NCBI RefSeq assembly: GCF_003418935.1
Contig: NZ_QVMT01000006.1
Location: forward strand, 248,001-312,000
Direction of reading: 5' to 3'
Length of the DNA: 64,000 nt
From: Emticicia sp. C21
GTDB lineage: Bacteria; Bacteroidota; Bacteroidia; Cytophagales; Spirosomataceae
In this document: positions 15,487 to 45,963 of the stretch, piece after piece
Layout of the letters: each line of letters opens with the position of its first letter
Position numbering within the stretch: the first letter of the stretch is position 1
Position numbers and translations under genes: made by a program
The notes under the pieces: generated by a model
Told to the model about the DNA's origin: nothing
Database searches by the model: none
What the model saw: the letters and a program-made list of their open reading frames with translations, nothing else

Positions 15487-15602
15487 CACCGACTGAAGTC
15501 GGTGGCTAAAATAACAAAGGAATAATTTACCTGTAAGCCGGACTTAAGTCCGGCGATGTATGCAAAAAGACCGTTGTTTTCTTAGCCGGCGAATTTATTC
15601 GC
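15487..15602 (+). repeat. Three-hairpin intergenic repeat, copy 1
   Basis: Left palindrome CACCGACTGAAGTCGGTG (15487-15504), central perfect palindrome GCCGGACTTAAGTCCGGC (15537-15554), right palindrome GCGAATTTATTCGC (15589-15602). Palindrome centres are 50 bp apart on each side. The linkers (AATAACAAAGG ... CCGTTGTTTTCTTAG) also pair with each other. Copies 2 and 3 lie at 19592-19710 and 45845-45963. Confidence 0.85.
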
Positions 15603-15649
15603 TGACCTTTGGGCTATCATTGAAATGATAAATCATGCAACCCTAATAA

Positions 15650-15688
15650 AACAAAAGAAGGCTTCCCACTAGGAAGCCTTCTTTTGTT
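15650..15688. terminator. Bidirectional intrinsic terminator
   Basis: Perfect 17-bp stem: AACAAAAGAAGGCTTCC (15650-15666) pairs with GGAAGCCTTCTTTTGTT (15672-15688), loop of 5. It serves rpsA on the minus strand and probably the S9 peptidase on the plus strand. Confidence 0.93.
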
Positions 15689-15702
15689 ACTCTTATGTTA
15701 TC

Positions 15703-17517
15703 TTACTCAGATACTGATTCAGATTCTTTCTTTTTGTTAGAAAGTTTCTTTTTCTCACCTTCTACCATTTGCTCTTTTAATGCAGCAAGGGCATCAAGGT
15801 CTCCAAGTGTTGATTTTTCTTCATTCGAAGAAGAAGCAGTTGCTTCTTTTCCACCTTTTTTCTTAGCTTCTTTTTTCTCATCTTCCTTAGGAGCTTCCCA
15901 GGTTTTAGAGTGAGAAAGCATGATTTTCTTCTCTTCTTTGTGGAATTCAAGCACCTGGAATGGCAATTTCTCACCAGCTTCAGCTACTGTACCGTCGGCT
16001 TTAGCTAAATGCTTCAACAATGCGTAACCTTCAATACCGTAAGGTAATTCAAGTGTTGCTTGTTTGTCATTTTTAGAGATAATTGTACACTCGTGCTCAG
16101 AACCTACTGTGAAGATGTGCTCGAAAGTATCCCAAGGATTTTCTTCTAAGTGTTTGTGGCTAAGGGCTAAACGACGGTTTTCAACGTCAAGCTCAAGCAC
16201 AACTACTTCCAAAGAATCACCAACTTTCACGAAATCTGATGGATGTTTGATTTTCTTGGTCCAGGATAAATCTGAAACGTGTACTAAACCATCAATACCT
16301 TCTTCTAATTCAAGGAAGATACCGAAGTTAGTCATATTACGTACAGTACCAGTATGAGTAGTACCTACTCCATATTTGCTCAATAAATCTTGTTTAGTCC
16401 AAGGATCTTCAGTCAATTGTTTAATGCCTAAAGACATTTTACGCTCTTCACGGTCAAGTGTCAATACAACTGCTTCGATTTCGTCACCGATTTTCAAGAA
16501 ATCAGATGGGTTACGTAAGTGTTGTGACCATGACATTTCAGAAACGTGAATAAGACCTTCAACACCCGGTTTCAATTCTAGGAATGCACCGTAATCTGCA
16601 ATGTTTACAATCTTACCTTTTACTTTCGAACCAACTGACAATCCTTCTGCCAATGAATCCCAAGGATGAGACTCAAGCTGTTTCATACCCAACGAAATAC
16701 GTTTTTTGTCTTCGTCGAAGTCCAGAACAACCACTTTGATACGTTGATCAAGTTTAAGCAATTCGTTTGGATGGTTGATACGACCCCATGAAATATCAGT
16801 AATGTGAAGTAGACCATCAACACCACCAAGGTCGATGAACACACCGAAGTTAGTAATGTTTTTAACCACACCTTCCAATACCTGACCTTTCTCCAAGTTA
16901 TTAAGGATAACCTGACGTTGAGTTTCAAGGTCTTTTTCAATAAGGATTTTGTGAGAAACCACTACGTTATCGTTAGTATGGTTGATTTTCACAACCTTAA
17001 CTTCCATTTTCTTACCAACGAAGATATCGAAATCACGGATTGGTTTAACGTCAATTTGTGAACCTGGCAAGAACGCCTCGATTCCGTAGATGTCAACAAT
17101 AAGACCACCTTTTGTACGACGTTTCACGAATGCATCGATGATAGCGTCTTCTGTAAATGATTTTTCGATGTTGTTCCAAGCGGTCAATACTCTTGCTTTT
17201 TTGCGAGAGATAACCAACTGACCCATAGCATCTTCTTGTTTTTCGATGAAAACCTCTACCTGATCACCTACTTTAAGGTTAGGTAAATCGCGGAACTCAG
17301 AGACCGAAACAAGACCATCTGATTTGAAACCAATGTTTAATAAGATCTCACGGTCAGTGATACCCACAACCGTAGCCATTACTACATCTTTCTCAGCAAC
17401 CTCTGTTAGGGTTTCGCTATAAAGTTTTTCAAGATCTGCTTTTTCAGAAGCGGAGTAGCCGCTACCGATACCTCTTTTTGAGACTTTGTCCCAGTCAAAT
17501 TCTGCAACTTGTGCCAT
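15703..17517 (-). CDS. rpsA: 30S ribosomal protein S1
   Basis: 604 residues from the ATG at 17517 (MAQVAEFDWDK); an upstream frame extension to 17547 crosses into the leader. Six S1/OB-fold repeats can be counted: about 45-115, 130-200, 215-285, 300-372, 388-460 and 475-545. Repeats 3-5 are the most canonical (NFGVFIDLGGVDGLLHITDISW, DYGAFLELKPGVEGLIHVSEMSW, NFGIFLELEEGIDGLVHVSDLSW). The C-terminal 60 residues are charged and low complexity (Lys/Glu/Ser rich). S1 unwinds and holds mRNA at the 30S platform. Its RNA-binding role may matter more in this phylum, where Shine-Dalgarno sites are scarce. It has its own promoter and terminator. Confidence 0.97.
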   Translation of the reverse strand: MAQVAEFDWDKVSKRGIGSGYSASEKADLEKLYSETLTEVAEKDVVMATVVGITDREILLNIGFKSDGLVSVSEFRDLPNLKVGDQVEVFIEKQEDAMGQLVISRKKARVLTAWNNIEKSFTEDAIIDAFVKRRTKGGLIVDIYGIEAFLPGSQIDVKPIRDFDIFVGKKMEVKVVKINHTNDNVVVSHKILIEKDLETQRQVILNNLEKGQVLEGVVKNITNFGVFIDLGGVDGLLHITDISWGRINHPNELLKLDQRIKVVVLDFDEDKKRISLGMKQLESHPWDSLAEGLSVGSKVKGKIVNIADYGAFLELKPGVEGLIHVSEMSWSQHLRNPSDFLKIGDEIEAVVLTLDREERKMSLGIKQLTEDPWTKQDLLSKYGVGTTHTGTVRNMTNFGIFLELEEGIDGLVHVSDLSWTKKIKHPSDFVKVGDSLEVVVLELDVENRRLALSHKHLEENPWDTFEHIFTVGSEHECTIISKNDKQATLELPYGIEGYALLKHLAKADGTVAEAGEKLPFQVLEFHKEEKKIMLSHSKTWEAPKEDEKKEAKKKGGKEATASSSNEEKSTLGDLDALAALKEQMVEGEKKKLSNKKKESESVSE

Positions 17518-17606
17518 ATTGATTTTTTGATGCGCCCATTCATACATCGACCCACCGGGCTTTCAGGTCGAAATTAGTTTGAAATAATCCTTTGAAAAAA
17601 GGACTG

Positions 17607-17637
17607 CAAAGGTAGGCCTTTTTCTGACAAAATCCAA
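17607..17637 (-). promoter_or_regulatory. rpsA promoter (-33 TTG, -7 TACCTTTG)
   Basis: On the minus strand TTG (complement 17635-17637), a 20-bp spacer, then TACCTTTG (complement 17607-17614). This fits the Bacteroidota sigma-ABfr consensus. The leader to the ATG is about 85 nt. Confidence 0.75.
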
Positions 17638-17861
17638 TATAAATTATTTATTATTAGTAAGTTAGAATATTTTTTTACTGATTGTGCTTTTAATGGTGAT
17701 TATTCACCTGTTTTATAGGAAAAATACTTGTTATATATACCGAAAAATATTATGCGTGCCGATTATTTTTAAATTTTTCTCATTGCTTCTCAATAAATCG
17801 TCTTATTTTTACATTAAAAAATACAAAACCTGTTCACTGTTAATAAATATTAAAATCTATT
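17638..17861. other. AT-rich intergenic region between rpsA promoter and acyl-CoA ligase
   Basis: About 220 bases of very AT-rich DNA between divergent genes. A short open frame across it has no coding character. I see no confident promoter for the ligase and no strong hairpin. Confidence 0.4.
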
Positions 17862-19568
17862 ATGCCTGTTAAAACACAACCGTATCCCTGGCTAAAATTT
17901 TATCCGGAGGGGATACCTTATGAAATCAACCCAGATGCCTATCCGTCATTATTAGAATTAATGGATGAGGGCTTTAAGAAATATGCTAATAATGCCGCCT
18001 ACTCTTGCATGGGCAAAGAGATCACATTCGGCGAATTAGATAAATACTCGCGCGATTTTGCCGCCTATCTTCAAAGCACGGATTTAAAGAAAGGTGATCG
18101 TCTGGTGATTCAGATGCCTAACTGTCTGCAATATCCGGTGGCTATGTTTGGTGCTTTAAGAGCAGGATTAATTATCGTCAATACCAATCCGCTATATACG
18201 CCTCGTGAAATGGAACATCAGTTTAAGGATTCGGGCGCAAAAGCTATTGTGATTGTAGCCAATTTTGCTTCGAACCTGGAGAAAGTACTTGATAAAACAT
18301 CCATCAAGCATGTATTTGTAACACAACTGGGCGATATGCTGGGCTTCCCAAAAAAGCAGATTGTGAATTTTGTGGTGAAGACCGTGAAGAAGATGGTGCC
18401 TGAATACAACCTGCCACAAGCCATGCCGTTTATGAGTGCCGTTAGCAAAGGCAGCAGCCTGAATTGGACTAAACCTACGCTTAAAAATTCAGAACTGGCC
18501 TTTATCCAATATACCGGTGGTACCACAGGTGTGTCAAAAGGCGCTATGCTGACTCACCGCAATATTATAGCCAACTTAGAGGCGAATCATATATGGCAAA
18601 GCGTAATGACTGGTAAGATTAAAGATGATAAAATAGTAGTGGTAGCCGCCCTGCCTTTGTATCATATTTATGCCCTGACAGTGAATGCCCTAACTTCTTT
18701 GAAAACTGGAACAATGAACCTGCTTATCACAAACCCACGTGATCTGGTGGCATTCATTAAAGATTTGAAGAAAAACCCACCTCATGTTTTCACCGGTTTA
18801 AATACATTGTATAACGGGTTATTAAATCATCCACAGATCAAAGAGGTTGATTTTAGTAAATTGGTGATTACTTCGGCAGGGGGTATGGCTTTGCAAGGTG
18901 TAGTAGCCAATCGTTGGAAAGAAATGACAGGGAATTTGCCTGCTGAGGGTTACGGTTTATCAGAAACCTCACCTGTATTGACATCTAATCCATTAGTAGG
19001 TGAAAACAGAATAGGAACCATCGGAGTACCCTGGCCAAGTACAGAAGTCAGAATATTAAAAGACGATGGCACCTGGGGAGACGTAGGCGAAGTAGGAGAG
19101 ATTTGTGCTAATGGCCCACAAGTAATGGCAGGTTACTATAACAGACCTGATGAAACGGCCAAAGTGATGATGAAAGATGAGGATGGCAAAGACTGGTTCA
19201 AAACCGGAGATATTGGCGTGATGGATGCAGACGGCTACTTCAAGATTGTAGATAGAAAGAAAGATATGATTCTGGTATCAGGCTTTAATGTTTATCCGAA
19301 TGAAATTGAAGAGGTAGTAGCTACTTGTCCCGGTGTTTTAGAAGTGGCTTGTATCGGTGTTCCTGACGAAAAATCTACGGAAGCCGTAAAAGTATTTATC
19401 GTGAAAAAAGACCCTGAGCTGACAGCCGAACAGGTAAAAGCCTATTGTAAGCAAAACCTGACAGGTTATAAATGCCCGAAACATATAGAGTTTCGTACTG
19501 AATTGCCTAAAACCAATGTTGGTAAAATTTTGCGCAGGGCTTTGAAGGAGGAGACGGCCAAAAATTAA
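17862..19568 (+). CDS. fadD: Long-chain fatty-acid-CoA ligase (AMP-binding)
   Basis: 568 residues, normal for FadD-type enzymes. The AMP-binding motif YTGGTTGVSKGAMLTHRN, the Y(G)LSETSP motif (GYGLSETSPVL), the TGDIGVMDADGYFKIVDRKKDMI hinge region and the C-terminal catalytic Lys region (PKTNVGKILRRALKEE) are all present. It activates fatty acids to acyl-CoA with ATP for beta-oxidation or lipid synthesis. Monocistronic, followed by repeat copy 2 and a bidirectional terminator. The symbol is given by family; chain-length preference is unknown. Confidence 0.92.
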   Translation: MPVKTQPYPWLKFYPEGIPYEINPDAYPSLLELMDEGFKKYANNAAYSCMGKEITFGELDKYSRDFAAYLQSTDLKKGDRLVIQMPNCLQYPVAMFGALRAGLIIVNTNPLYTPREMEHQFKDSGAKAIVIVANFASNLEKVLDKTSIKHVFVTQLGDMLGFPKKQIVNFVVKTVKKMVPEYNLPQAMPFMSAVSKGSSLNWTKPTLKNSELAFIQYTGGTTGVSKGAMLTHRNIIANLEANHIWQSVMTGKIKDDKIVVVAALPLYHIYALTVNALTSLKTGTMNLLITNPRDLVAFIKDLKKNPPHVFTGLNTLYNGLLNHPQIKEVDFSKLVITSAGGMALQGVVANRWKEMTGNLPAEGYGLSETSPVLTSNPLVGENRIGTIGVPWPSTEVRILKDDGTWGDVGEVGEICANGPQVMAGYYNRPDETAKVMMKDEDGKDWFKTGDIGVMDADGYFKIVDRKKDMILVSGFNVYPNEIEEVVATCPGVLEVACIGVPDEKSTEAVKVFIVKKDPELTAEQVKAYCKQNLTGYKCPKHIEFRTELPKTNVGKILRRALKEETAKN

Positions 19569-19591
19569 CCGTGTTCGACAGTCAAAGGGTT

Positions 19592-19710
19592 CACCGAATG
19601 AATTCGGTGTCTAAGTCAACAAAGGTATTTTTGAATACAGTACCAGACTTAAGTCCGGTACATAAATTTAGAATTATTCCTTTGTTAATTTAGTCGGCGA
19701 CTTCAGTCGC
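19592..19710 (+). repeat. Three-hairpin intergenic repeat, copy 2
   Basis: Left palindrome CACCGAATGAATTCGGTG (19592-19609), central TACCAGACTTAAGTCCGGTA (19641-19660, one mismatch), right GCGACTTCAGTCGC (19697-19710). Linkers CTAAGTCAACAAAGG (19611-19625) and CCTTTGTTAATTTAG (19679-19693) pair. Compared with copy 1 the left arm changes GACT/AGTC to GAAT/ATTC on both sides, a compensatory change. The octamer TCGACAGT flanks the element at 19575-19582 and 19715-19722. Confidence 0.83.
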
Positions 19711-19742
19711 TGAATCGACAGTAAAAGCTAAATAAACCCATA

Positions 19743-19779
19743 AAAAATGCCCTAAAATCGTAAGATTTAGGGCATTTTT
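19743..19779. terminator. Bidirectional intrinsic terminator
   Basis: Perfect 14-bp stem AAAAATGCCCTAAA / TTTAGGGCATTTTT (19743-19756 with 19766-19779). Shared by the acyl-CoA ligase (+) and the peroxiredoxin operon (-). Confidence 0.9.
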
Positions 19780-19799
19780 GTTGATGAAGCGAGTGCGAA

Positions 19800-20057
19800 T
19801 TAAGCGGGTACTCTATCAATTGAACCCATCACTTTTTTCATAAAGGTGTTAGCGGCATCTTTTTCAGGCATGCCATCAGCTATCATTTGGTGTACTTCCA
19901 ATGCTCCACAGAAATTAGAGATGAGTTCTCCAATCACGTCTACTTCTTCGTCTTTCAAAGACGGTGTTTCAGAAATATTTTCTAATACTTTAATAGCTGC
20001 CTCGATTTCAGCTACCGAAGAGGTGCGCTGAATTTGTCTAATTAAGGGTAATTTCAT
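19800..20057 (-). CDS. Small conserved protein, DUF6952-type
   Basis: 85 residues, no signal peptide or membrane segment. The sequence (SLKDEEVDVIGELISNFCGALEVHQMI, FMKKVMGSID) resembles a small Bacteroidota family that I recall as DUF6952, found beside thioredoxin and peroxiredoxin genes. Its start overlaps the end of the thioredoxin gene by 20 bp, implying translational coupling. It is the third gene of the peroxiredoxin-thioredoxin operon. Function unknown; a cytoplasmic helper of the redox pair is plausible but not shown. The single Cys (C50) is in a helix-like context. Confidence 0.75.
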   Translation of the reverse strand: MKLPLIRQIQRTSSVAEIEAAIKVLENISETPSLKDEEVDVIGELISNFCGALEVHQMIADGMPEKDAANTFMKKVMGSIDRVPA

Positions 20058-20352
20058 CTATCAAAGATTTTAATTGTTCTTCTTTATTGGTCTGTACCTG
20101 ATTTACCAATTGTCCGCCTTTAAAACTGGCAAATGTTGGCAAATTGTTCACCGAAGCCAGTTTTCTAGACGACGGGAATTTCTCGGCATCCACAATCACA
20201 AAAGCAGTGCTTTCATTGTCGTTTGACAGTCTTTTGAATTTTGGTTTCATCAGTCTGCAATTCCCACACCACGAAGCCGAAAATTGTACCATTACTTTGT
20301 CGTTTTGAGCTACAATCTCAGCTAAATTATCTTCTGCTAATTCAATCAACAT
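20038..20352 (-). CDS. Thioredoxin-family protein
   Basis: 104 residues, cytoplasmic. The active site is ASWCGNCR (C29, C32), a CGNC variant of the usual CGPC. Cis-proline segment NNLPTFASFKGG follows. It lies 18 bp after the peroxiredoxin gene and overlaps the next gene, so it is the likely dedicated reductant of that peroxiredoxin. The Pro-to-Asn change at the central dipeptide would be expected to alter redox potential (inference). Confidence 0.88.
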   Translation of the reverse strand: MLIELAEDNLAEIVAQNDKVMVQFSASWCGNCRLMKPKFKRLSNDNESTAFVIVDAEKFPSSRKLASVNNLPTFASFKGGQLVNQVQTNKEEQLKSLIDEITLN

Positions 20353-20370
20353 ACTCGTAAGATTTTAAAA

Positions 20371-21003
20371 TTAGTTTTGTGAGAAATAATTGGCCACACC
20401 TGCATTAGTAGCCTCCATGGCTGCTTCACCTTCTTCCCAGTTAGCAGGACAAACCTCACCGAATTTCTCTACGTGCAATTGTGCATCTAATAAGCGAAGA
20501 TAATCATCAATATTACGGCCTAACGGTAAGTCATTGATTGACTCATGACGCACGATACCTTCTTTGTCAATTAAAAACGTACCACGGAATGCTACCGGAT
20601 TTCCCACAAAAGACCATGTTCTGGTTTCGTTGTTGAACACATACTCACCACCCAAAACGCCACAATTCAAAGAAACAACTTTAGAAGTATCAGCAATAAT
20701 CGGATAAGTAATGCCCTGGATACCACCTTGTTCTTTAGGCGTATTCAACCAGGCCAGGTGTGTTTCTTCTGTGTCTGTTGAACAACCTACTACCACTGCA
20801 CCTCTTTTTTCGAATTCACCTAATTTTTCCTGAAAAGCATGCAATTCTGTCGGACATACGAAAGTGAAATCTTTCGGGTAGAAGAACAAAATCACATACT
20901 TTTTACCTAAATATTGGTCTAAACTGAAGTTTTCAACGATTTCTTCACCGTCGATTACAGCACCTGTATTAATGTGCGGATATTTTTTACCTACTAATGA
21001 CAT
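20371..21003 (-). CDS. Typical 2-Cys peroxiredoxin (AhpC/Prx1 type)
   Basis: 210 residues. Peroxidatic Cys C50 in FYPKDFTFVCPTE and resolving Cys C185 in VCPANW define a typical 2-Cys peroxiredoxin. It reduces H2O2 and organic peroxides in the cytoplasm. The C-terminal tail (ATNAGVANYFSQN) extends past the usual YF region. First gene of an operon with a thioredoxin and a DUF6952 protein. A TACCTTTG box lies about 128 bp upstream, which implies a long leader. Confidence 0.95.
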   Translation of the reverse strand: MSLVGKKYPHINTGAVIDGEEIVENFSLDQYLGKKYVILFFYPKDFTFVCPTELHAFQEKLGEFEKRGAVVVGCSTDTEETHLAWLNTPKEQGGIQGITYPIIADTSKVVSLNCGVLGGEYVFNNETRTWSFVGNPVAFRGTFLIDKEGIVRHESINDLPLGRNIDDYLRLLDAQLHVEKFGEVCPANWEEGEAAMEATNAGVANYFSQN

Positions 21004-21130
21004 TGTATTATTATACTATTTATTGGGTTTGTAAATAAGAAAACCAACACAAAAAAATACAAAAATTTGGTATCGGTCTCTCTATTATTCGAATGTTCTA
21101 TTAAGTTCTTTTAATAGTCCAAATGTGTTG

Positions 21131-21138
21131 CAAAGGTA
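21131..21138 (-). promoter_or_regulatory. -7 box of the peroxiredoxin operon
   Basis: TACCTTTG on the minus strand, 128 bp upstream of the peroxiredoxin ATG; the rest of the leader is AT-rich. No TTG at the expected -33 distance. Confidence 0.55.
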
Positions 21139-21311
21139 TAATCTATGGAGGGAATAGAATATGATGATTGTCAGGAATAGGTTAATAGTGCAATTTTAGT
21201 GAGAATTGGGAATTGGATTTTTATTAGATTGGGATTTTGTAAGAATTTCTTTGCTAAGAAAAAAAGGTTGTATATAAGGACGTTTTAAAAGTATATTTTA
21301 AACTTATGAAA

Positions 21312-21328
21312 TACACTTTTAAAGTGTA
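21312..21328. promoter_or_regulatory. Operator-like palindrome upstream of the Uma2 gene
   Basis: TACACTTT T AAAGTGTA is a perfect 8-bp-arm palindrome with a single central base. It ends 7 bp before a TATATTTG -7 box (21336-21343), so it occupies the promoter spacer. A repressor site is likely; the regulator is unknown. Confidence 0.5.
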
Positions 21329-21335
21329 AATTGGT

Positions 21336-21343
21336 TATATTTG
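21336..21343 (+). promoter_or_regulatory. -7 box of the Uma2 gene
   Basis: TATATTTG matches TAnnTTTG, 20 bp upstream of the ATG at 21363. The other bases of the 360-bp gap 21004-21362 show no gene. Confidence 0.55.
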
Positions 21344-21362
21344 TAAATAAACTTCAGGAAAG

Positions 21363-21980
21363 ATGGCAACGGGAACAAGTGATTTTTTACCAAGACTTAT
21401 CCGACATAAACCTGCTCGTAAATATACACTCGAAGAATATTTACGAAAGGAGGGTAATTCGACGTATAAACATGAATTTATAAATGGCGAGATACTTAAA
21501 ATGCCTAACGCAAGATATAATCATAATCTGATAGCCATGAATGTGGCTGTTGAAATGACTAATACCATTGAAGAATCAGATAAAAACTATCTTGTTTTAG
21601 GTTCTGACCAGAAAATATATCTACCTGTTCTTGATGAAAGCGTTTATGCAGATACCCTGGCTGTTTGTGAAAAGCCGTTATTCTGGGACGATGACGATTT
21701 ATTATTAATAAATCCGATTTTGGTGGTAGAAGTTTTATCAAAATCAACTCAACGCTATGACCGGACAAGTAAGTTTGATAAATATAAAACACTAGAATCA
21801 TTTAAAGAGTATGTAATGATTCGTCAGAATGAATGTTATGCAGAGGTTTGGTATAGAGAACGCCCCGGACTTTGGCATGAAACAAATGTAACTGATATTG
21901 ACAGCAAACTACCTCTTCAGTCTCTTGGTGTAGAAATTTCAATGAAGCGGATTTATAAAAATGTAAGTTTTGCTGTCTAA
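21363..21980 (+). CDS. Uma2-family (DUF820) putative nuclease-fold protein
   Basis: 205 residues. It matches the Uma2/DUF820 pattern: RKYTLEEYLRKEG, KHEFINGEILKM, the YADTLAVCEK segment with the conserved Asp, NPILVVEVLSKSTQRYDRTSKFDKYK with the E-x-L core, and YVMIRQNECYAEVW. The family has a PD-(D/E)XK-like restriction-endonuclease fold but no known biological role. It stands alone with its own promoter and palindrome. A decayed relative lies at 31248-31835. Confidence 0.85.
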   Translation: MATGTSDFLPRLIRHKPARKYTLEEYLRKEGNSTYKHEFINGEILKMPNARYNHNLIAMNVAVEMTNTIEESDKNYLVLGSDQKIYLPVLDESVYADTLAVCEKPLFWDDDDLLLINPILVVEVLSKSTQRYDRTSKFDKYKTLESFKEYVMIRQNECYAEVWYRERPGLWHETNVTDIDSKLPLQSLGVEISMKRIYKNVSFAV

Positions 21981-22050
21981 AAGTATATCTTCTTGCGCAA
22001 AGTTTTGCAGTGATTTTTACTTGACTCTACTCAAAAATCATTTAAACCTG

Positions 22051-22058
22051 TAACTTTG
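22051..22058 (+). promoter_or_regulatory. -7 box of metG
   Basis: TAACTTTG, 91 bp upstream of the metG start; a TTG lies 27 bp further upstream, longer than the normal spacer. Confidence 0.4.
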
Positions 22059-22149
22059 CGAACTTATTTTTATAATGCGTGATTTAGTATAATCAAAAAG
22101 AGGCGTTTGCTCGTTTATTAATTACTAAAATCACACAATACCATTTCCT

Positions 22150-24198: not shown

Positions 24199-24219
24199 GG
24201 AGCTAAGCATACAAAATTT

Positions 24220-24255
24220 AAAAATGGGATTGCAAGTTATTGTAATCCCATTTTT
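24220..24255 (+). terminator. Intrinsic terminator after metG
   Basis: Perfect 12-bp stem AAAAATGGGATT / AATCCCATTTTT with a 12-base loop and a T tail. Confidence 0.87.
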
Positions 24256-24277
24256 ATGATTTCTATCCCTAAAAAGT

Positions 24278-24285
24278 TATATTTG
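24278..24285 (+). promoter_or_regulatory. -7 box of the DUF433/DUF5615 pair
   Basis: TATATTTG, 26 bp before the ATG at 24312 and just after the metG terminator, so the pair has its own promoter. Confidence 0.5.
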
Positions 24286-24311
24286 TATAAGGAAACAAAA
24301 AGGATTATTAT

Positions 24312-24539
24312 ATGGACCTCAATCGTATCACTTTCAATCAAAATATTATGGGGGGCAAACCCTGTATTCGTGGAATGCGAGTTACAGTAGGAACAATTGT
24401 AGGTTTAATAGCTGCGGGGCGTTCTAATAATGAAATCCTGGAGGCTTATCCGTATTTAGAAATAGAAGATTTACGTCAGGCTCTTTCCTATGCTGCTTGG
24501 CGAGCCGAAGAAATTGATATTCCTGCTGTATTTTCATGA
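24312..24539 (+). CDS. DUF433 antitoxin-like protein
   Basis: 75 residues. It shows the DUF433 pattern: ITFNQNIMGGKPCIRGMRVTVGTIVGLIAAG, EILEAYPYLEIEDLRQALSYAA. DUF433 proteins are small winged-helix-like DNA-binding antitoxins usually paired with a PIN-like DUF5615 partner. Here the stop overlaps the start of exactly such a gene (ATGA overlap at 24536-24539). Predicted role: neutralises the partner and represses the operon. Assigned by family and arrangement; no activity is shown. Confidence 0.87.
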   Translation: MDLNRITFNQNIMGGKPCIRGMRVTVGTIVGLIAAGRSNNEILEAYPYLEIEDLRQALSYAAWRAEEIDIPAVFS

Positions 24540-32929: not shown

Positions 32930-32962
32930 ATATATTCTGTATGTTGTTGATGCAAAGTTAAG

Positions 32963-33122
32963 GAAACTGTTTGAGTTAAATTTTATGAATCAAAATGAAT
33001 TATTTTTTTCAAAGACAAGGAATGACAACCGGAGTTTAGCAGAGCTAAATGAGGATTGTTATGACGCAGTATTTGGAAAAAAGAATCATTTTGAACATAA
33101 CAAGATTAACTCAAACAGTTTC
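32963..33122 (-). repeat. 160-bp imperfect palindrome between argB and argE
   Basis: Outer arms are a perfect 17-bp inverted repeat, GAAACTGTTTGAGTTAA (32963-32979) with TTAACTCAAACAGTTTC (33106-33122). Pairing continues inward imperfectly: TCAAAATGAATTA with GAATCATTTTGA, CAAAGAC with a TATTTGG-type partner, and a central TTTAGC AGA GCTAAA (33035-33049). The symmetry axis is at 33042. It begins 4 bp after the argB stop and ends 33 bp before the argE start. In RNA it would form one long hairpin inside the operon. It looks like a miniature mobile or repetitive element; no transposase is present. Confidence 0.8.
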
Positions 33123-33125
33123 ATT

Positions 33126-36918: not shown

Positions 36919-36940
36919 CAAATGTTTAAACGCATATTCG

Positions 36941-36967
36941 AATCCGCAGTAGTCTTTACTGCGGATT
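36941..36967 (+). terminator. Intrinsic terminator after the S8 protease
   Basis: Perfect 11-bp stem AATCCGCAGTA / TACTGCGGATT, 5-base loop and T run. Confidence 0.92.
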
Positions 36968-37123
36968 TTTTATTTTATCAACATGAGACGATTGCAGATT
37001 ATATTGTAATTCTTTTTACTTTGTAAATAGCGCAAAAGACTATTGATGAATTGTAGAGATGTGCAAGTAAGAATTTAAAGTAAAGAAATAGACCAGTACT
37101 AACCTGATTTTATACAAAAAAAG

Positions 37124-37147
37124 AAGCCGAAGCATTCGCTTCGGCTT
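37124..37147 (-). terminator. Intrinsic terminator after the M1 peptidase
   Basis: On the minus strand AAGCCGAAGC / GCTTCGGCTT with a 4-base loop and a long T run, 28 bp past the stop at 37176. Confidence 0.92.
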
Positions 37148-37175
37148 TCTTGATTTATGGAAAACAGAGAGAAAA

Positions 37176-39560: not shown

Positions 39561-39589
39561 ATATTTATGATGAAGGGCTTAATAAATAA

Positions 39590-39597
39590 CAAAAATA
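39590..39597 (-). promoter_or_regulatory. -7 box of the M1 peptidase gene
   Basis: TATTTTTG on the minus strand, 29 bp upstream of the start codon; no clear -33 TTG. Confidence 0.45.
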
Positions 39598-39662
39598 TAA
39601 AAAAAGCTTAAAGATTGACATTAAAAATGCCTCTTTTACCTATTCTGGAGACATTTCTTAAC

Positions 39663-40118
39663 TTATTTCCGACGAATCTTTGGTAAAACGACTATTACTG
39701 CAATTTCTATATTAGCTCCTCCAGGTAAATTTGCCACACCAACGGTCGTGCGGGCAGGGAATTTACCTTCGAAATACTGGCCGTACAGCTCGTTTACTCT
39801 GGCAAAATTAGCGATGTCTTTCAGGTAGATAGTAGTATTCACAATGTCCTCCATTTTGGCTCCTGCGGCTTCTACAACAGCTTTGATATTTTCCATGACC
39901 TGTATGGTTTCAGGGTCTATACCTCCCTCCACCAATTTACGGGTTTGAGGATTCAGCCCGATTTGTCCGGCTACATAGAGCATACCATTCGCTTTTACTC
40001 CCTGGCTATAGGGAGCAGTAGGTATGGGAGCCTTCTTAGTCTCGACAATTTCTTTGTTTTGTCCAAAGGCAAGGGATATAGAGAGGGCTAAAAAGCCAAT
40101 GAGTAGAAGTTTGTTCAT
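39663..40118 (-). CDS. Exported RidA-family protein
   Basis: 151 residues. Signal peptide MNKLLLIGFLALSISLAFGQ precedes a RidA domain: APIPTAPYSQGVKANGMLYVAGQIGLNPQT, GGIDPETIQVMENIKAVVEAAGAKMEDIVNTTIYLKDI, FPARTTVGVANLPGGANIEIAVIVVLP. It keeps the residues of active RidA (PYSQ, the Arg in PARTTVG, Glu in the last strand). The domain normally works in the cytoplasm on enamine/imine intermediates; here it is predicted to be exported. The mature N-terminus is QNKEIVETKKA. Confidence 0.88.
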   Translation of the reverse strand: MNKLLLIGFLALSISLAFGQNKEIVETKKAPIPTAPYSQGVKANGMLYVAGQIGLNPQTRKLVEGGIDPETIQVMENIKAVVEAAGAKMEDIVNTTIYLKDIANFARVNELYGQYFEGKFPARTTVGVANLPGGANIEIAVIVVLPKIRRK

Positions 40119-40172
40119 GTGTTTTTGATTTGTGCTTACAATTTTCTAAATTTTGTTTTAAAATCAAAATAG

Positions 40173-40598
40173 ATGAATTTTGAAACTGTTTTTTCTGTAG
40201 TGAATGCCTTGGTGATGCCCCAATGGCTATTGATGATTTTTGCTCCATATTGGAGGTGGACGCTTAAACTGACAGATTCGTACCTTATTCCGGTATTATT
40301 GGCTGTTACTTATGCTTTCTATGTGATTATGAGCTTGGATGATTTAGACTTTATGTCATTCAGCACATTGGCAGGGATTAAACAAATGTTTTCAGCAGAA
40401 CAGAGTGTTCTGGTTGGTTGGATTCATTATTTGTGTTTTGATTTAATAGCAGGCACATGGATTTACAAAGATTCATTAACCAAAGGCAAAAATCGGATAG
40501 TAGTCGGTATATGCCTGTTCCTTTGCCTGATGCTCGGGCCGATTGGTTTCCTGCTGTATTGGATAATCCGAAAATTGGCAAGAAACCAAGCAACTTAG
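40173..40598 (+). CDS. ABA4-like/DUF4281 membrane protein
   Basis: 141 residues with four hydrophobic helices. The segments VNALVMPQWLLMIFAPYWRWT, GWIHYLCFDLIAGTWIYKDS and LMLGPIGFLLYWIIRK match the DUF4281 (ABA4-like) family, related to the plant plastid protein needed for neoxanthin formation. The bacterial members have no demonstrated function; a link to carotenoid or lipid metabolism is only a guess. Convergent with the LytTR gene, 17 bp apart; divergent from the exported RidA gene. Confidence 0.85.
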   Translation: MNFETVFSVVNALVMPQWLLMIFAPYWRWTLKLTDSYLIPVLLAVTYAFYVIMSLDDLDFMSFSTLAGIKQMFSAEQSVLVGWIHYLCFDLIAGTWIYKDSLTKGKNRIVVGICLFLCLMLGPIGFLLYWIIRKLARNQAT

Positions 40599-40615
40599 TA
40601 TCACGACATGGAACA

Positions 40616-41407
40616 TTATATCTCCATCAATCTCTTCAGATTATCGCCATAGGTAGAACCTGTCTCAATCTTGGTAATTTTACTGTCACGCATCACAACC
40701 AGATATTTGCCATTGAAATACTTCTGTAATTCTTTAATCAGATGAGAATTAACAATGGACGCGCGGCTTACCCGTACGAAATTTTCTGGCAGTTTTTCTT
40801 CCAAGCTGGTAATGGTATAGTTAGTCAGATACTGCTTGCCATCAGTAGTATTCAGAAATACATATTTATCCTCTGCTTCAAAATAACTGATGTCGGTTAG
40901 AGGAATAAACAATATCCTTTCCCCTGATTTCACCGAAATAGAATGAGCTGTTGTCTGTTTTTGGGCAGGCGAACGTTGTGTTTCCTCTTTGGATTTAAAC
41001 TGTTCGAGCAACTGAATCAGGTTAGCATTCAATGAATTATCCTCTTTCTTCTCTTCTAATTTCTTTAGTTTCTCTATCGTTTTCTCTAATCTTTCCGGCT
41101 CAATCGGTTTCAATAAATAATCAATCGAGTTCTCTTCAAAAGCCCGGATAGCATATTGGTCGTAGGCCGTAGAGAATATTACCTTTGGCATATACGATAG
41201 GTTTGATAACATTTCAAAACCTGTCATCAATGGCATTTCAATATCTAAAAAAATCAGGTCGGGTTTTTGTGTTTCAATTTTTTCTAAACCCTCTTGCCCG
41301 TTATGTGCTTCATCGATGATGCTGATAACAGAATTGTAGTGCGACAACAATCTTTTCAAACGGCTGATAGCCAGCGGTTCATCATCAATCAATATAGTCT
41401 TAAACAT
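40616..41407 (-). CDS. LytTR-family response regulator
   Basis: 263 residues from the ATG at 41407 (MFKTILIDDEPLAISRLK); a TTG at 41416 would add three residues. Receiver domain about 1-115 with the acidic pair at D8/D9, phospho-acceptor D55 in LIFLDIEMP and K100 in DYLLKPIEP. A Lys/Glu-rich linker follows, then a LytTR DNA-binding domain about 155-263 (LFIPLTDISYFEAEDKYVFL, FVRVSRASIVNSHLI). It lies 18 bp after the DUF4097-kinase gene, so it is that kinase's cognate partner. Last gene of a four-gene operon. Confidence 0.95.
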   Translation of the reverse strand: MFKTILIDDEPLAISRLKRLLSHYNSVISIIDEAHNGQEGLEKIETQKPDLIFLDIEMPLMTGFEMLSNLSYMPKVIFSTAYDQYAIRAFEENSIDYLLKPIEPERLEKTIEKLKKLEEKKEDNSLNANLIQLLEQFKSKEETQRSPAQKQTTAHSISVKSGERILFIPLTDISYFEAEDKYVFLNTTDGKQYLTNYTITSLEEKLPENFVRVSRASIVNSHLIKELQKYFNGKYLVVMRDSKITKIETGSTYGDNLKRLMEI

Positions 41408-41425
41408 GGTCTTCAATTTTAATGG

Positions 41426-43711
41426 TTATATACTCATTTTATCCAGAGTCTCTACAGGTACTTTGATAATAATGGATTTGTAATCGTTATTTTCAATTTG
41501 CAGATTCGCGTCATTACCATAAATCAGCTGCAATTTATCACTAATACTTCTTAGCCCATATCCTCCGCTCAAATCTTCTTTAAAAGCCGGGCCATTGTCA
41601 TGTATCTGAAAGGCTATCAGATCTTTTTCTTTTGAAATCTTCACATCAATAATTCCATGCTCGGTAATCTTAGAAATGCCGTGTTTGATGGCATTTTCAA
41701 CAATCGGTTGTAGTAGAAAACGAGGGATCTTAATGTTTTCAAGCCCCGGCTCTAATTGAACTGAGTATTTCAATCGATCACCGAAACGCATTTGTTCGAT
41801 TGACAGGTAAGATTTGACAATATCTAATTCTTCGGCAATGCTATGGAAACTCTGGTCAGAGCGCCCTGTGGTAGCCCTGAATAATTTGGAAAGTTGGATG
41901 GTCATTTCTTCGGCTTTGTCCGGATTATCGTGAATCAAACCGGTGATACTATTTAATGAATTGTACAGAAAATGTGGATTAATGCGGGCTTCTAAGGCGT
42001 TGAGTTGAGCTTTGGTTTTTAGTTTTTCAAGGTTCAACAGTTGGTATTCCTGCTCCGAAATCTTCCTGTCGAGGTCTTTAGAGCGTTGCCAGTTATAGAA
42101 AATCACACAAACCGCAACCATCGGAATTAATAGATAAAGTGTACTATGATTAGCTATGCCCGTTTCAGTATATTTTATTGACATGATTCTCCAGTAGTGT
42201 GCCCAGTATTTTCCTCCATCATTCTCTACTAAATACAAAGCTTTTTGAAAAAGGCGCGCCAACATTAAAGTAAAGTAAGTAAATACTATCAGAATAGTGT
42301 ATTTCGACCAGTTCTTTGTAAGAAAACGCTCGATAAAAAGGATAAAAATAATCAGACTGATAAAACAGGCAAAGCCCGTAGTAAGATTGGCTAAAAAAAC
42401 GGCTTTATTCTGCTCGGCTTCTAAAGAGGTAGGATTTAATAGTTCTAAAGAAAAATATAAGATACTGTTTAGTCCATAGATAAGGAACAGCGCAAACAAA
42501 AAGGTATAAAAGACAAATTGTGGGTTAAGCCGATTAATAGCATTTTTAAAGCTTGTTCTGAAACTATTATTCCGTTCTCTGTAATGAGGTCTTGGGAGTT
42601 CTGAAACGGGTGTCGGTATATCATAGCCAGAAGTCTTTGAAGTAACATCAGGAGCTTTCTCCAGATTAATCCTATCTACCCAGGTATATTGTTTTTTTTT
42701 AAGCTCGTCTTCTACATCCGGGAAAAGCTCTGCTTTGGGGGCATAGATTCTGACATTGCCCCCAAAAGATTTTAGTTTCACACTTGCCCCACCACCGTTG
42801 ATACTACCCAATATGAATCCCGACCGCTTATTACCCTGGAAATTGGGTAGGTGAGGAGCTCTTACAATCGACCCGTCGGCTTCTATTTGCAAACCCTGAC
42901 TCAAAGGCAGCTGCGCTTTAATATTACCCCCACTTGTTTCAAGCCATAAGTATTCGTTAATAGCACTTGCCTGAATATTAATGTTACCGCCTTTGGTAGA
43001 AGCACCAATATTGCCTTTCATGTTTTCGAGACGGATGTTCCCACCAAACGTAAAAGTTTTAAATTCACCTGAAATATTGGCGGCTCTGATATTGCCTCCA
43101 CTAGTCTTGGTATAGAGTTTTCCGCTGAAATTCTCTAGTTTAAAATTACCCCCGCTGGTGTTACTATTAATCTCACCTTTTGAATTTTGAATCAGTACAT
43201 TACCTCCTGAGGTAGAAAGATCAGCTTTTATATCGCAATTACCTACTTTTATACTTCCTGCTGATGCTTTTCCTTGTATCTCTCCAACCGAATTGGCAAT
43301 TTTTATATCTCCTATGGCCGTACGAAGTGTTTGTTTGCCAATAAGGTTATTCAAAGCAATATCTCCTACAGTGGTTGTGACTAAGGCATTGATATTCTTA
43401 GGAATAAAAACCCGAAAAGATACCTGAAAAAAACTCAACCAATCCCATTTCCAGAAGCCATTATTACGGGCAGCAATTCTTAGATGGTCGCCCTGTTGCG
43501 TTATATTCACCAATTCATATCCTGCGTCGGCAGAGGTGACACTCTCTTTTCTAAAGAAATTGATAAACAGGCGTTTAGAGGCATATATCTCAATTCTGAT
43601 TTCATTTTCTTCGTTACCCAGAAGTTCAATATTTCCGGTAATAGTTTCTATTTGCAGGTTTCTGACACCTTCAGCAGAGACGGTCTTTATTTCTGATGGT
43701 AAATAATTCAT
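41426..43711 (-). CDS. DUF4097 beta-repeat / 4-TM / LytS-type histidine kinase fusion
   Basis: 761 residues, much longer than ordinary LytS/YehU kinases in this phylum (about 350). Residues about 10-335 form a DUF4097-type ('putative adhesin') beta-repeat region with seven GGN turns about 20 residues apart (SGGNVLI, SGGNFKL, SGGNIRA, FGGNIRL, KGGNINI, SGGNIKA, FGGNVRI). A linker is followed by four TM helices about 398-420, 437-461, 470-490 and 524-541. Then comes a coiled coil and a His_kinase domain with H580 in NPHFLYNSLNS, N-box VENAIKHG and G-box DNGPAF/GYGLRSI. There is no signal peptide, so the beta-repeat domain should be cytoplasmic. Its ATG overlaps the stop of the upstream membrane-protein gene (TAATG). 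Confidence 0.9.
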   Translation of the reverse strand: MNYLPSEIKTVSAEGVRNLQIETITGNIELLGNEENEIRIEIYASKRLFINFFRKESVTSADAGYELVNITQQGDHLRIAARNNGFWKWDWLSFFQVSFRVFIPKNINALVTTTVGDIALNNLIGKQTLRTAIGDIKIANSVGEIQGKASAGSIKVGNCDIKADLSTSGGNVLIQNSKGEINSNTSGGNFKLENFSGKLYTKTSGGNIRAANISGEFKTFTFGGNIRLENMKGNIGASTKGGNINIQASAINEYLWLETSGGNIKAQLPLSQGLQIEADGSIVRAPHLPNFQGNKRSGFILGSINGGGASVKLKSFGGNVRIYAPKAELFPDVEDELKKKQYTWVDRINLEKAPDVTSKTSGYDIPTPVSELPRPHYRERNNSFRTSFKNAINRLNPQFVFYTFLFALFLIYGLNSILYFSLELLNPTSLEAEQNKAVFLANLTTGFACFISLIIFILFIERFLTKNWSKYTILIVFTYFTLMLARLFQKALYLVENDGGKYWAHYWRIMSIKYTETGIANHSTLYLLIPMVAVCVIFYNWQRSKDLDRKISEQEYQLLNLEKLKTKAQLNALEARINPHFLYNSLNSITGLIHDNPDKAEEMTIQLSKLFRATTGRSDQSFHSIAEELDIVKSYLSIEQMRFGDRLKYSVQLEPGLENIKIPRFLLQPIVENAIKHGISKITEHGIIDVKISKEKDLIAFQIHDNGPAFKEDLSGGYGLRSISDKLQLIYGNDANLQIENNDYKSIIIKVPVETLDKMSI

Positions 43712-44289
43712 TACTTCATTAATTTATTTCTTTCTACAATCCACATCACAAACAATGTCTCAAAAATCAAAGTAAATGGAATAATAGAAATATTTTTGAA
43801 AAATAAGAGTACCGGCCATTTTGAGGCTGTAGGACTGAGTAACTCTGTCGATTTTAACCAATCTAAAAATGTGGTGTAATCAAATAAGGCAAATAAAGCT
43901 ATATTAAAAATAACTGCTACCACTATTAAGATGATAAAATTGGTCAGAATGGCTATAGAATTATTCGAGAAATTACTCTTAACTGTAGCCCAAACATGAG
44001 ACCATTCATCTCTTGTCAGGCGGAACAGGTTGGTTAGATTGTTGAAACCTATCTGCACATACCCCTGACCAATGATAAGGAAGATAATTAAAAGGCGTGC
44101 TCCATTGATTACAACTTCCAGTATTCCGTGCATGGATGGAGTTATCTCGCCATAGCCGCCCTCCTGAAAAAACCTGCCTAAACCCGCCACTGCCCCCAAA
44201 CTCAATATCAGAATAAAGTTTCTTTTGAAATAAGTGTCGGTCTTTTGAATAAGGTCCGCAAAACCTAACAAAGCATAAGTATTTTTCAT
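43711..44289 (-). CDS. Four-TM membrane protein of the kinase operon, unknown function
   Basis: 192 residues with hydrophobic segments about 24-42, 56-78, 110-136 and 160-184. I recognise no family. It lies 18 bp after a TPR-like exported protein gene and overlaps the kinase gene by one base, so it is co-translated with the sensor. A role as a membrane partner or accessory sensor of the kinase is plausible from this coupling. The polar loop FRLTRDEWSHVWATVKSNFSNN between TM2 and TM3 is the main soluble part. Confidence 0.8.
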   Translation of the reverse strand: MKNTYALLGFADLIQKTDTYFKRNFILILSLGAVAGLGRFFQEGGYGEITPSMHGILEVVINGARLLIIFLIIGQGYVQIGFNNLTNLFRLTRDEWSHVWATVKSNFSNNSIAILTNFIILIVVAVIFNIALFALFDYTTFLDWLKSTELLSPTASKWPVLLFFKNISIIPFTLIFETLFVMWIVERNKLMK

Positions 44290-44307
44290 GATTATAGTAG
44301 GGTTAAA

Positions 44308-44949
44308 TTAATTAGCTTGCGATAATAAATAATTAGCAGCTCTTTCTCCCCAGTTTGGTGCAATGGTTGATGCGGGTTTGAATTTGGCAAATTTACTCAA
44401 TGCATCTTCAAACAAAGGAGCTGATTTCTTTTTGCCTCCACCGTAAGCTTCCGGTGTAAAGAAAATACCTTGTGCTTCTAGTAATTTGGCTCTTGGGTTT
44501 TCTGGGTTCAGTTTATAAGCATTTTGTATGCCTGTGCTTACAGCTCCACCATATTTTTGCCAGCGATCTTGTGGCGCTACGGCCATTCTTGCACCCGCCA
44601 CATACGCTTTCATCACTTCTATTTCATCATTATTCGGTTGTAGCTTTTCGGCTGCGACCAGAAATTTATCGGCTTTATCTAACAACAGGTCTTTTTTATC
44701 AGCATCAGTTTCGGCAAAAGAAAGATTGGTTAAACCATACGTTGCCCAATAGTTTGGTAGCCATTCTTTAGGTTCTGCGGCTGCAATGCGTTCTAGCTGG
44801 CTTACTCCTTGCTTGGTATTTTCGGTATTTTCAAACTCGCTCAATAAGGTAATGGCATTTTCCATAGCTGCCACGTACTCGGCTTTCTGAGCAAAAGTCT
44901 TGACGAAAATTAAAGATAAAAAGCTGATAGTTAAAATAATTCTTTTCAT
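44308..44949 (-). CDS. Exported TPR-like protein of the kinase operon
   Basis: 213 residues. Signal peptide MKRIILTISFLSLIFVKTFAQ, then an all-helical protein with TPR-like spacing: WLPNYWATYGLTNLSFAE, LLLDKADKFLVAAEKLQPNNDEIEV, GIQNAYKLNPENPRAKLLEAQGIFF. It resembles TPR-like proteins widespread in Bacteroidota without known function. First gene of the operon; -7 box TAATTTTG at complement 45000-45007, 50 bp upstream. Possibly a periplasmic partner of the membrane components; this is inference from gene order. Confidence 0.8.
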   Translation of the reverse strand: MKRIILTISFLSLIFVKTFAQKAEYVAAMENAITLLSEFENTENTKQGVSQLERIAAAEPKEWLPNYWATYGLTNLSFAETDADKKDLLLDKADKFLVAAEKLQPNNDEIEVMKAYVAGARMAVAPQDRWQKYGGAVSTGIQNAYKLNPENPRAKLLEAQGIFFTPEAYGGGKKKSAPLFEDALSKFAKFKPASTIAPNWGERAANYLLSQAN

Positions 44950-44999
44950 TTCTGTAGGTGTTTAAATGATTAATGAGGTCTTGTGCCTGATTGACGATT

Positions 45000-45007
45000 C
45001 AAAATTA
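45000..45007 (-). promoter_or_regulatory. -7 box of the DUF4097-kinase operon
   Basis: TAATTTTG on the minus strand, 50 bp upstream of the first gene's ATG. The -33 region has no clear TTG. Confidence 0.5.
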
Positions 45008-45084
45008 TATGGTAGAGAAAGGGCAGGACAGGAGTTTCTGACAAAGGCCTGATTTGCAGGAGTAAAATAGGCTTTTAAAGGAGT

Positions 45085-45103
45085 AAATACTTTAGTATTT
45101 TTG
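45085..45103 (+). promoter_or_regulatory. Palindromic operator overlapping the -7 box of the WYL regulator
   Basis: AAATACT TT AGTATTT (45085-45100) is a perfect 7-bp-arm palindrome; its right arm overlaps TATTTTTG (45096-45103), a -7 box 27 bp before the ATG at 45131. This arrangement fits autorepression by the regulator encoded just downstream. Confidence 0.55.
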
Positions 45104-45130
45104 GCTATTAATCCTCTACCTATCTTACTC

Positions 45131-45814
45131 ATGAATCGTATCGACCGCCTGATGGCCATTGTAACTACACTACAATCCAGAAAATTTGTGAGTGCCGAGA
45201 GCATTTCAGAGAGATTTGAAATCAGTGTCCGTACGGTTTATCGGGATATTAAAGCATTAGGCGAATTGGGTATTCCGGTGAGTTTCGAGAATCAGAAAGG
45301 GTATTTTATTGTGCCTGGCTATTTCCTGCCTCCGGTGGCATTCAGCATTGAAGAAGCCAATGCGCTTCTGCTCATGGAAAGTGTAACCATGGGATTTGCC
45401 GATAAATCTATCAGAAAACATTATTCGTCTGCGCTCAATAAGGTAAAATCAGTACTACGAACCGGCCAGAAAGAAAAAGTAGAGTTACTGACCGATAATA
45501 TTAAACTACAGGTGCCTCAACGCCTGAATAATGATTTTGAATACCTGAGTACCATTCAGAATGCCATTGTCTCCAAACATATTCTTGATATTCAGTACAG
45601 CAATATGAAAGAGGAAGTCAGTCGGCGGCAGGTGGAGGCGATAGGTTTGGTTTTCTATGCCTTTAGCTGGCATATGATAGCCTGGTGCCACCTGCGCGAA
45701 GAATATCGAGACTTCAAGGTTTCCCGCATACAAAGTATTAATGATATGGAGATTCCTTTCAGGAAGCAGAACCATATTAAGTTAAATGATTATGAGCTGC
45801 CTGTGGAGTATTAA
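45131..45814 (+). CDS. YafY-type HTH/WYL-domain transcription regulator
   Basis: 227 residues from the ATG at 45131 (MNRIDRLMAIVTTLQSRK); the frame from 45101 would start inside the promoter. N-terminal HTH_11 about 1-60 (FVSAESISERFEISVRTVYRDIKALGELGIPV), then a WYL-type ligand domain (ILDIQYSN, RRQVEAIGLVFYAFSWHMIAWCHLREEYRDFKVSRI). WYL regulators respond to small molecules or nucleic acids. It is divergent from the kinase operon. Repeat copy 3 lies between it and DinB. Confidence 0.9.
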   Translation: MNRIDRLMAIVTTLQSRKFVSAESISERFEISVRTVYRDIKALGELGIPVSFENQKGYFIVPGYFLPPVAFSIEEANALLLMESVTMGFADKSIRKHYSSALNKVKSVLRTGQKEKVELLTDNIKLQVPQRLNNDFEYLSTIQNAIVSKHILDIQYSNMKEEVSRRQVEAIGLVFYAFSWHMIAWCHLREEYRDFKVSRIQSINDMEIPFRKQNHIKLNDYELPVEY

Positions 45815-45844
45815 TCCATTTGTTCTCTATTACGGAAATGACAA

Positions 45845-45963
45845 CGACTTTAGTCGCTGCCTAAGATAACAATGGTATTTTTTTTATATACATCGCCGGA
45901 CTTAAGTCCGGCTTGCATACAAATTTGTTCCGTTGTTATTTTAGCCACCGACTTCAGTCGGTG
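45845..45963 (-). repeat. Three-hairpin intergenic repeat, copy 3 (inverted)
   Basis: CGACTTTAGTCG (45845-45856), central perfect palindrome GCCGGACTTAAGTCCGGC (45895-45912), and CACCGACTTCAGTCGGTG (45946-45963). Relative to copies 1 and 2 it is in the opposite orientation. Centre spacings are 53 and 51 bp. The rest of the gap 45815-46111 shows nothing else except AT-rich DNA before dinB. Confidence 0.85.

Follow-up and report, generated by a model that had tools for sequence, protein, structure and literature searches.

Dispersed three-hairpin repeats of Emticicia sp. C21 are probably REPIN-like elements linked to a subclass 1.2 Y1 transposase gene

We analysed a 64,000-nucleotide stretch of the genome of Emticicia sp. 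C21 (contig NZ_QVMT01000006.1, positions 248,001 to 312,000; hereafter the window), which carries three copies of a repeat of about 120 bp. Each complete unit is a pair of inverted half-units around a common central palindrome. Copies are dispersed through the genome, their local hairpins covary, individual copies are present in some sister species and absent from others, and at one locus a Y1 (HUH) transposase gene lies between two half-units. The dispersal, anatomy, presence and absence, and linked gene fit a REPIN-like non-autonomous element, REPINs being inverted pairs of repetitive extragenic palindromic (REP) hairpins. We conclude that the repeats are probably non-autonomous REPIN-like elements of a Y1 transposase of subclass 1.2. 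A first-pass annotation made from the sequence of the window had suggested either mobilisation in trans by a Y1 transposase or a structural RNA or DNA signal, and the former is now the best-supported reading, given 29 places in the genome, hairpin covariation and a Y1 gene flanked by half-units.

Each half-unit, read outward, has the 15-nt motif CCTTTGTTNNNTTAG followed by a single spacer base and then a hairpin. The foot tetranucleotide on the 5' side, one base from the hairpin, was TTAG in 53 of 56 half-units, ATAG in two and GTAG in one. Covariation was measured on 28 copies with complete ends and no tip inserts, 11 from the C21 genome (G000) and 17 from the sister genome G099, taken from 28 tabulated G000 copies and 38 G099 copies tabulated among the matches listed. 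In this alignment, 93.9% of the cells of the three local hairpins were paired, compared with 78.9% after shuffling, and their covariation was 0.383 compared with 0.126, a value reached in 0 of 500 shuffles; in the right outer hairpin, 99.6% of cells were paired. In contrast, the helix between the two linkers was paired in 89.8% of cells both in the alignment and in shuffles, without covariation, and was rejected as a structure. Nine of its 15 pairs were invariant, indicating conserved sequence rather than structure: the two linkers carry one conserved motif in opposite orientations, which makes them complementary. Long-range pairing of the two outer arms was also rejected (81.5% of cells paired vs. 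82.4% in shuffles). Since only the local hairpins covary, the conserved form is three separate hairpins. The first-pass annotation had argued for selection on the folded form from paired linkers and from a matched outer-arm change (GACT/AGTC to GAAT/ATTC). The arm change is real and keeps pairing, and the complementarity of the linkers is present, but covariation supports the local hairpins only. It separates a clover form from one long hairpin here, favouring local hairpins; "clover" is the name that a supplementary legend of Bertels and Rainey gives to a comparable fold (PMC3116915).

On the TTAG strand of the outer hairpins, we counted 34 G.T and 2 A.C among 448 cells. Pair 2 accounts for 27 of the 34 G.T cells, which are probably inherited, leaving 7 G.T vs. 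2 A.C elsewhere. The excess of G.T fits recognition of one strand, a fit weakened by this founder effect.

The half-unit parser read 118 of 131 motif hits, of which 93 have a short hairpin and 25 a GC-rich tip; chance matches and some unusual tips are among the 13 that it did not read. The parser assumes one orientation of the tips, and C23:160264 and L238 read otherwise. Both half-units were parsed in 18 of the 28 tabulated G000 copies, one in 8 and none in 2; among the 38 G099 copies in the matches listed, both were parsed in 36 and one in 2. GC-rich inserts of about 14-17 nt occur at hairpin tips and in some linkers (L005, L007, L013, L014 and L016; in G099, L209, L212, L213, L220 and L224), mostly in a single orientation, and are polymorphic between orthologues. 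The insert is possibly a nested, very small mobile repeat; its motif had no match in the window at up to three mismatches.

The palindromes may be kept up by transposase recognition, by host function or by template-switch correction. In quasipalindrome correction, template switching mends imperfect palindrome arms, so the upkeep of palindromes need not be selection on host function. Such correction, or gene conversion between copies, would make the covariation mutational. We regard this as possible though somewhat doubtful; it concerns upkeep only and is compatible with a REPIN-like element. Paired changes do distinguish orthologous copies: in the central palindromes of 5 of 11 orthologous pairs, at 7 base pairs each, 6 base pairs were compensated, 4 were paired in just one of the two species and 25 showed no change. 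GC-rich tips are present in one orthologue and missing from the other, as expected of a replication-slippage hot spot. However, the imperfection at pair 2 is kept, uncorrected, as a one-strand G.T in 27 of 56 half-units, and mutational upkeep leaves the dispersal and the gene link unexplained.

To define the family, we searched the C21 genome (6.64 Mb in 33 contigs). BLAST at E ≤ 10 gave 67 matches, the weakest of which are probably chance. A covariance model built from 11 copies, three of which were entered in both orientations to make 14 sequences, gave 56 matches at 29 places at E ≤ 1, with a best E ≤ 0.01 at 27 places; 11 of the 29 places were in the model, so their match is by construction. 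The copy table derived from these searches is without C1:888521 and C23:461778 and includes C29:312150, found by BLAST only. At 27 of the 29 places the model matched both strands, and the unit is itself an inverted repeat, so the earlier description of the third window copy as inverted says little. Among ten other genomes of the genus, at E ≤ 0.1, G099 had 94 matches counted over both strands, seven genomes had 4-22 and two had none. The family therefore extends well beyond the three window copies, with hairpins that covary rather than arms that diverge unpaired.

Both flanks matched a fetched G099 copy in 10 of the 28 tabulated G000 copies, and window copy 3 was an eleventh with a G099 orthologue, found by a separate search. 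The orthologues of copy 3 in G099 and G105 are degraded, and G103 lacks one; copy 1 is missing from G105 and G103, and copy 2 is missing from G103. Three combinations with differing neighbouring sequence (copy 1 in G099; copy 2 in G099 and in G105) are left aside in this comparison. In G105 and G103, the site orthologous to window 15486-15606 (L250 and L252) holds a different hairpin or palindromic sequence of the AGACGCATGTAAAGCGTCTC type.

As in REP and REPIN families, the copies are short palindromes present at many (29) places and mostly intergenic. Of 27 G000 copies, 24 overlap no called open reading frame (ORF) of at least 90 aa and 3 overlap one. By a simple ORF heuristic, their neighbouring genes are tandem in 17 cases, convergent in 6, divergent in 3 and of unknown orientation in 1. 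The median distance was 45 nt to a stop codon (30 distances) and 146 nt to a start codon (23 distances). Within the window, each copy begins 23-27 nt past a stop codon (ORFs 13303-15459, 17862-19568 and 45101-45814), in agreement with the first-pass annotation. This placement and the covarying hairpins, with the compensated pairs in orthologous central palindromes, would suit repeats kept for a host function, as 3'-end mRNA stabilisers, terminators or structural RNA, with or without spread by a transposase. We consider that explanation unlikely. After copy 1, and again after copy 2, comes a separate terminator-like inverted repeat with a T run, no Rfam family matched anywhere in the window at gathering thresholds, and 3 of 27 G000 copies and 7 of 38 G099 copies among the matches listed lie between divergent genes. 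Moreover, orthologous copies are degraded or missing in sister species, and two half-units on opposite strands in each complete unit would be odd for a stranded RNA signal. Insertion into terminator-like palindromes was also considered as a rule and rejected (flank match 6.02 vs. 5.84 in shuffles for 54 copies; 29 of 200 shuffles at or above the observed value). One copy, G000:C23:621287-621408 (L008), is enclosed by the inverted repeat CGCAACGTCTTGTG / CACAAGACGTTGCG, as though it had entered the loop of a terminator.

The search for a Y1 gene gave five PF01797 matches in G000. One of these genes, at G000:C23:461901-462332 (L036 1402-1833; 143 aa), is flanked by two inverted half-units, each carrying outer hairpin, motif and inner palindrome, with one more half-unit upstream. 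A single Y1 gene flanked by repeats, a REPtron, is a feature of REP and REPIN systems and was found at L036 in one genome. L081 has the same half-unit layout with a short spacer where the gene would be. The L036 protein passed the NCBIfam IS200 model NF033573 (69.2 bits, cut-off 55) and failed NF047646 (REP_Tyr_transpos; 35.7 bits, cut-off 80), and so does not score as a class 2 TnpA-REP. Its motif YIFNQEVHH corresponds to the Y---Q--HH of TnpA-Y1 subclass 1.2, FEWQ supplies WQ, and its HuH motif DHLH is one residue away from the subclass consensus DH[IV]H. A profile search of the PDB returned transposases including 2xm3, which we take to be ISDra2, and ISHp608 (2a6m). By motif and length, we assign the predicted enzyme to TnpA-Y1 subclass 1.2. 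The first-pass annotation was thus right to look for a Y1 enzyme, but judged from its sequence this one is not a canonical REP-associated tyrosine transposase (RAYT). G000 has one gene copy of this type, its other related gene being 37% identical, unlike a multi-copy autonomous insertion sequence (IS).

We then scanned 21 Y1 loci from G000, G099, G105, G103, G106 and G108, with up to 1.5 kb per side and two substitutions allowed in the half-unit motif; half-units lay beside the L036 gene only. At the locus orthologous to L036, G105 has neither gene nor repeats, and G099 and G103 have half-units and no gene. The gene may have been lost in G099, which would account for the many copies there without it.

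Palindromes beside subclass 1.2 genes proved to be general among those examined. A related protein was present in 149 of 222 genomes of the family at E ≤ 1e-15, and the best 80 of 567 matches listed in a scan of named genomes were mostly from Bacteroidota. The best 30 of the family search, these 80 and L037, a second G000 gene described below, gave 111 loci, of which 103 had 300-bp flanks and 99 were left after dropping duplicate flanks and those shorter than 200 bp. The best inverted repeat between upstream and downstream flanks of the 103 loci had a mean score of 14.2, compared with 8.8 in mismatched loci; 37 of 103 exceeded the 95% point of the null and 16 of 103 the 99% point. Of the 99 loci (97 with the motif), 79% had palindromes of arm score ≥ 8 no further than 200 bp away on one or both sides, and 38% had them on both, compared with 12% and 1% of shuffles made by a custom dinucleotide segment-rotation routine. 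In a common type of palindrome, arms of 9 bp enclose two central bases and the tip reads T-NN-A. As a control we took other genes of the same named loci, 500 bp or more away: palindromes were found upstream of 54% and downstream of 64% of Y1 genes (n = 78), compared with 14% (n = 85) and 14% (n = 84) of other genes, an excess that ordinary terminators probably do not explain.

One subtype palindrome pattern had 318 forward matches in 52 of 222 family genomes, whereas its reversed control had 25 in 21. In a 48-genome genus that we call Dyadobacter-like (the flanks of L047 and L064 are common to the named Dyadobacter loci L093 and L141), the palindrome family was found in all 22 genomes that carry the closer gene subtype and in 2 of the 26 others, at a cut of E < 3e-28 that was chosen post hoc, with G060 entered as no match and with genomes of one genus not being independent; without a cut, palindrome and gene closeness gave a Spearman coefficient of 0.78. 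The flank of the G182 gene was considered as a large repeat family and rejected on its few further matches. These results bear on the idea that another enzyme spreads the repeats and that the L036 gene arrived as a passenger in a repeat cluster already there. The repeats without a gene at the orthologous locus in G099 and G103, and the many gene-free copies in G099, are what a passenger would leave, but we find the idea improbable, since flanking palindromes are general among the subclass 1.2 genes examined, and track gene subtype in the Dyadobacter-like genus, and since the half-units, in the scan of 21 Y1 loci, lay beside the L036 gene only.

G000 has a second gene-repeat pair. The gene at C4:74597-75013 (L037) is subclass 1.2-like, with the motif YIENQEEHH, and arrays of TCCCGTAGGGA palindromes lie upstream of it. 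The pattern TCCCGTAGGGAYRATATATY had 62 matches in G000, 57 in G099, 14 in G103 and 12 in G105; seven further members of the genus had none. The L037 gene type is present in G000, G099 and G103. Another subclass 1.2-like subtype occurs at L188 (G099:C11:100734-101024) and L185 (G105), with CTTTAG-tipped palindromes nearby; the L188 gene has an internal stop.

Several observations weigh against REPIN-like mobility driven by this subclass. The L036-type gene lies between these half-units in one genome only, and G099, despite its 94 model matches, has no such gene among its Y1 genes; its loss there is our reading of the locus, and the alternative is that the gene may have been gained in G000. We observed no excision or insertion event and no duplicated target; nor is there any sign that transposition was recent, the closest other copy being 85% identical to window copy 3. 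The strand asymmetry is mostly a founder feature, one inherited pair supplying those 27 G.T cells. With perfect arms that are short, both G000 genes fell under the palindrome-scan threshold (L041, 6 and 6; L037, 5 and 4), and in G182, G191 and G211, which hold the nearest proteins, the flank palindrome had only a few further matches. Finally, G105 is an exception to the second pair, with its TCCCGTAGGGAYRATATATY matches and no L037 type among the Y1 genes listed.

We propose the following mechanism for REPIN-like spread. When the DNA is single-stranded, for example on the lagging-strand template, the enzyme would bind a hairpin marked by TTAG at the 5' foot, much as TnpA-REP binds one marked by GTAG, and would cut near the ends of the unit, which would then be inserted elsewhere in trans, mostly at an intergenic site. 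With less assurance, we also lean towards a broader view in which subclass 1.2 is a REP-type system across Bacteroidota, each subtype having palindromes of its own that need no GTAG for recognition and commonly combine 9-bp arms with a T-NN-A tip. On this view, the three-hairpin unit would be an elaborate REPIN of this class, used as substrate in the clover fold with its local hairpins.

The three window copies (Table 1) align with one another over their full length. Their palindrome centres are 50 and 50 bp apart in copy 1, 50 and 53 bp in copy 2, and 53 and 51 bp in copy 3, bearing out the fixed plan with 50-53-bp spacing that had been described; the central palindrome, described as perfect, is so in copies 1 and 3 and has one mismatch in copy 2 (CCAGACTTAAGTCCGG). 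The sequence GACTTAAGTC, at up to one mismatch, had 9 matches in the window (1.73 expected; 0 of 100 shuffles reached 9), 7 of them inside the copies. RNA fold z-scores of the copies ranged from -3.98 to -9.31, far under shuffles. Two other inverted repeats were noted in the window: one at 32960-33125, with 57-nt arms that are 72% complementary and 52 nt apart, and a perfect 23-nt repeat at 51086-51265, with 134 nt between its arms.

Table 1 Features of the three repeat copies, in window positions
Feature	Position	Strand	Basis
Copy 1, complete three-hairpin unit (two inverted half-units, common central palindrome)	15486..15606	.	covariance-model match contig 263485-263606, both strands
Copy 1 outer hairpin, minus-strand half-unit (TTAG orientation on -)	15487..15504	-	sequence
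Copy 1 conserved motif CCTTTGTTNNNTTAG, minus-strand half-unit	15506..15520	-	sequence, linker alignment
Copy 1 central palindrome GCCGGACTTAAGTCCGGC	15537..15554	.	sequence, motif count, covariation
Copy 1 conserved motif, plus-strand half-unit	15571..15585	+	sequence, linker alignment
Copy 1 outer hairpin, GAAT/ATTC form	15587..15604	+	sequence
Copy 2, complete unit	19592..19713	.	sequence, alignment, covariance-model match
Copy 2 outer hairpin, GAAT/ATTC form	19592..19609	-	sequence
Copy 2 conserved motif, minus-strand half-unit	19611..19625	-	sequence, linker alignment
Copy 2 central palindrome, one mismatch	19640..19661	.	sequence, covariation
Copy 2 conserved motif, plus-strand half-unit	19679..19693	+	sequence, linker alignment
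Copy 2 outer hairpin, GACT/AGTC form	19695..19712	+	sequence
Copy 3, complete unit	45842..45965	.	sequence, alignment, covariance-model match
Copy 3 outer hairpin, minus-strand half-unit	45842..45859	-	sequence
Copy 3 conserved motif, minus-strand half-unit	45861..45875	-	sequence, linker alignment
Copy 3 central palindrome GCCGGACTTAAGTCCGGC	45895..45912	.	sequence, motif count
Copy 3 conserved motif, plus-strand half-unit	45930..45944	+	sequence, linker alignment
Copy 3 outer hairpin, plus-strand half-unit	45946..45963	+	sequence

If our reading is true, these repeats are a substrate for a transposase subclass described as having none, and a further enzyme class joins REP/REPIN biology in Bacteroidota. 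The covariation bears on the question of which fold REPINs use, and a Bacteroidota enzyme-repeat pair would be suited to in vitro tests.

REPINs and bacterial interspersed mosaic elements (BIMEs) are described as short intergenic pairs of inverted hairpins with a conserved 5'-foot tetranucleotide, together with one Y1 gene that has repeats on its flanks (PMC8266576, PMC3116915). The Emticicia repeats resemble the REPIN/BIME systems of RAYT (TnpA-REP) groups 2.2 and 2.5 of E. coli and Pseudomonas in their dispersed inverted hairpin pairs and repeat-flanked single Y1 gene. They differ in having a TTAG foot plus one spacer base instead of GTAG/GTGG, an extra central palindrome common to both halves, an enzyme with a class 1 (subclass 1.2) rather than class 2 motif, and tens rather than hundreds of copies; here, covariation backs local hairpins, comparable to the "clover" of the supplementary legend in PMC3116915, and not a long hairpin. 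Given the different foot tetranucleotide and enzyme class, we do not class them as REP/RAYT members; by analogy, they appear to work like REP/REPIN from outside that family. With IS200/IS605 elements (IS608, ISDra2) they share the transposase family and hairpin ends, whereas here the gene is single-copy, the ends are inverted repeats and the gene is missing from nearly all copies. The literature titles and abstract openings searched, which cover subscription papers and bioRxiv thinly, reported no repeats linked to subclass 1.2. In the account of Quentin et al. (2018, PMC6006769), REPs in Bacteroidota are reported for subclasses 2.4 and 2.6, the automatic REP search required GTAG or GTGG feet in TnpA-REP-encoding genomes, and subclass 1.2 enzymes are described without IS properties or REPs. 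That subclass has the Y---Q--HH motif, a length of about 148 aa, low copy number and an occurrence in Bacteroidetes and Cyanobacteria, a description that the L036 enzyme fits, but where the published table enters "no" for REP, repeats flank the gene here.

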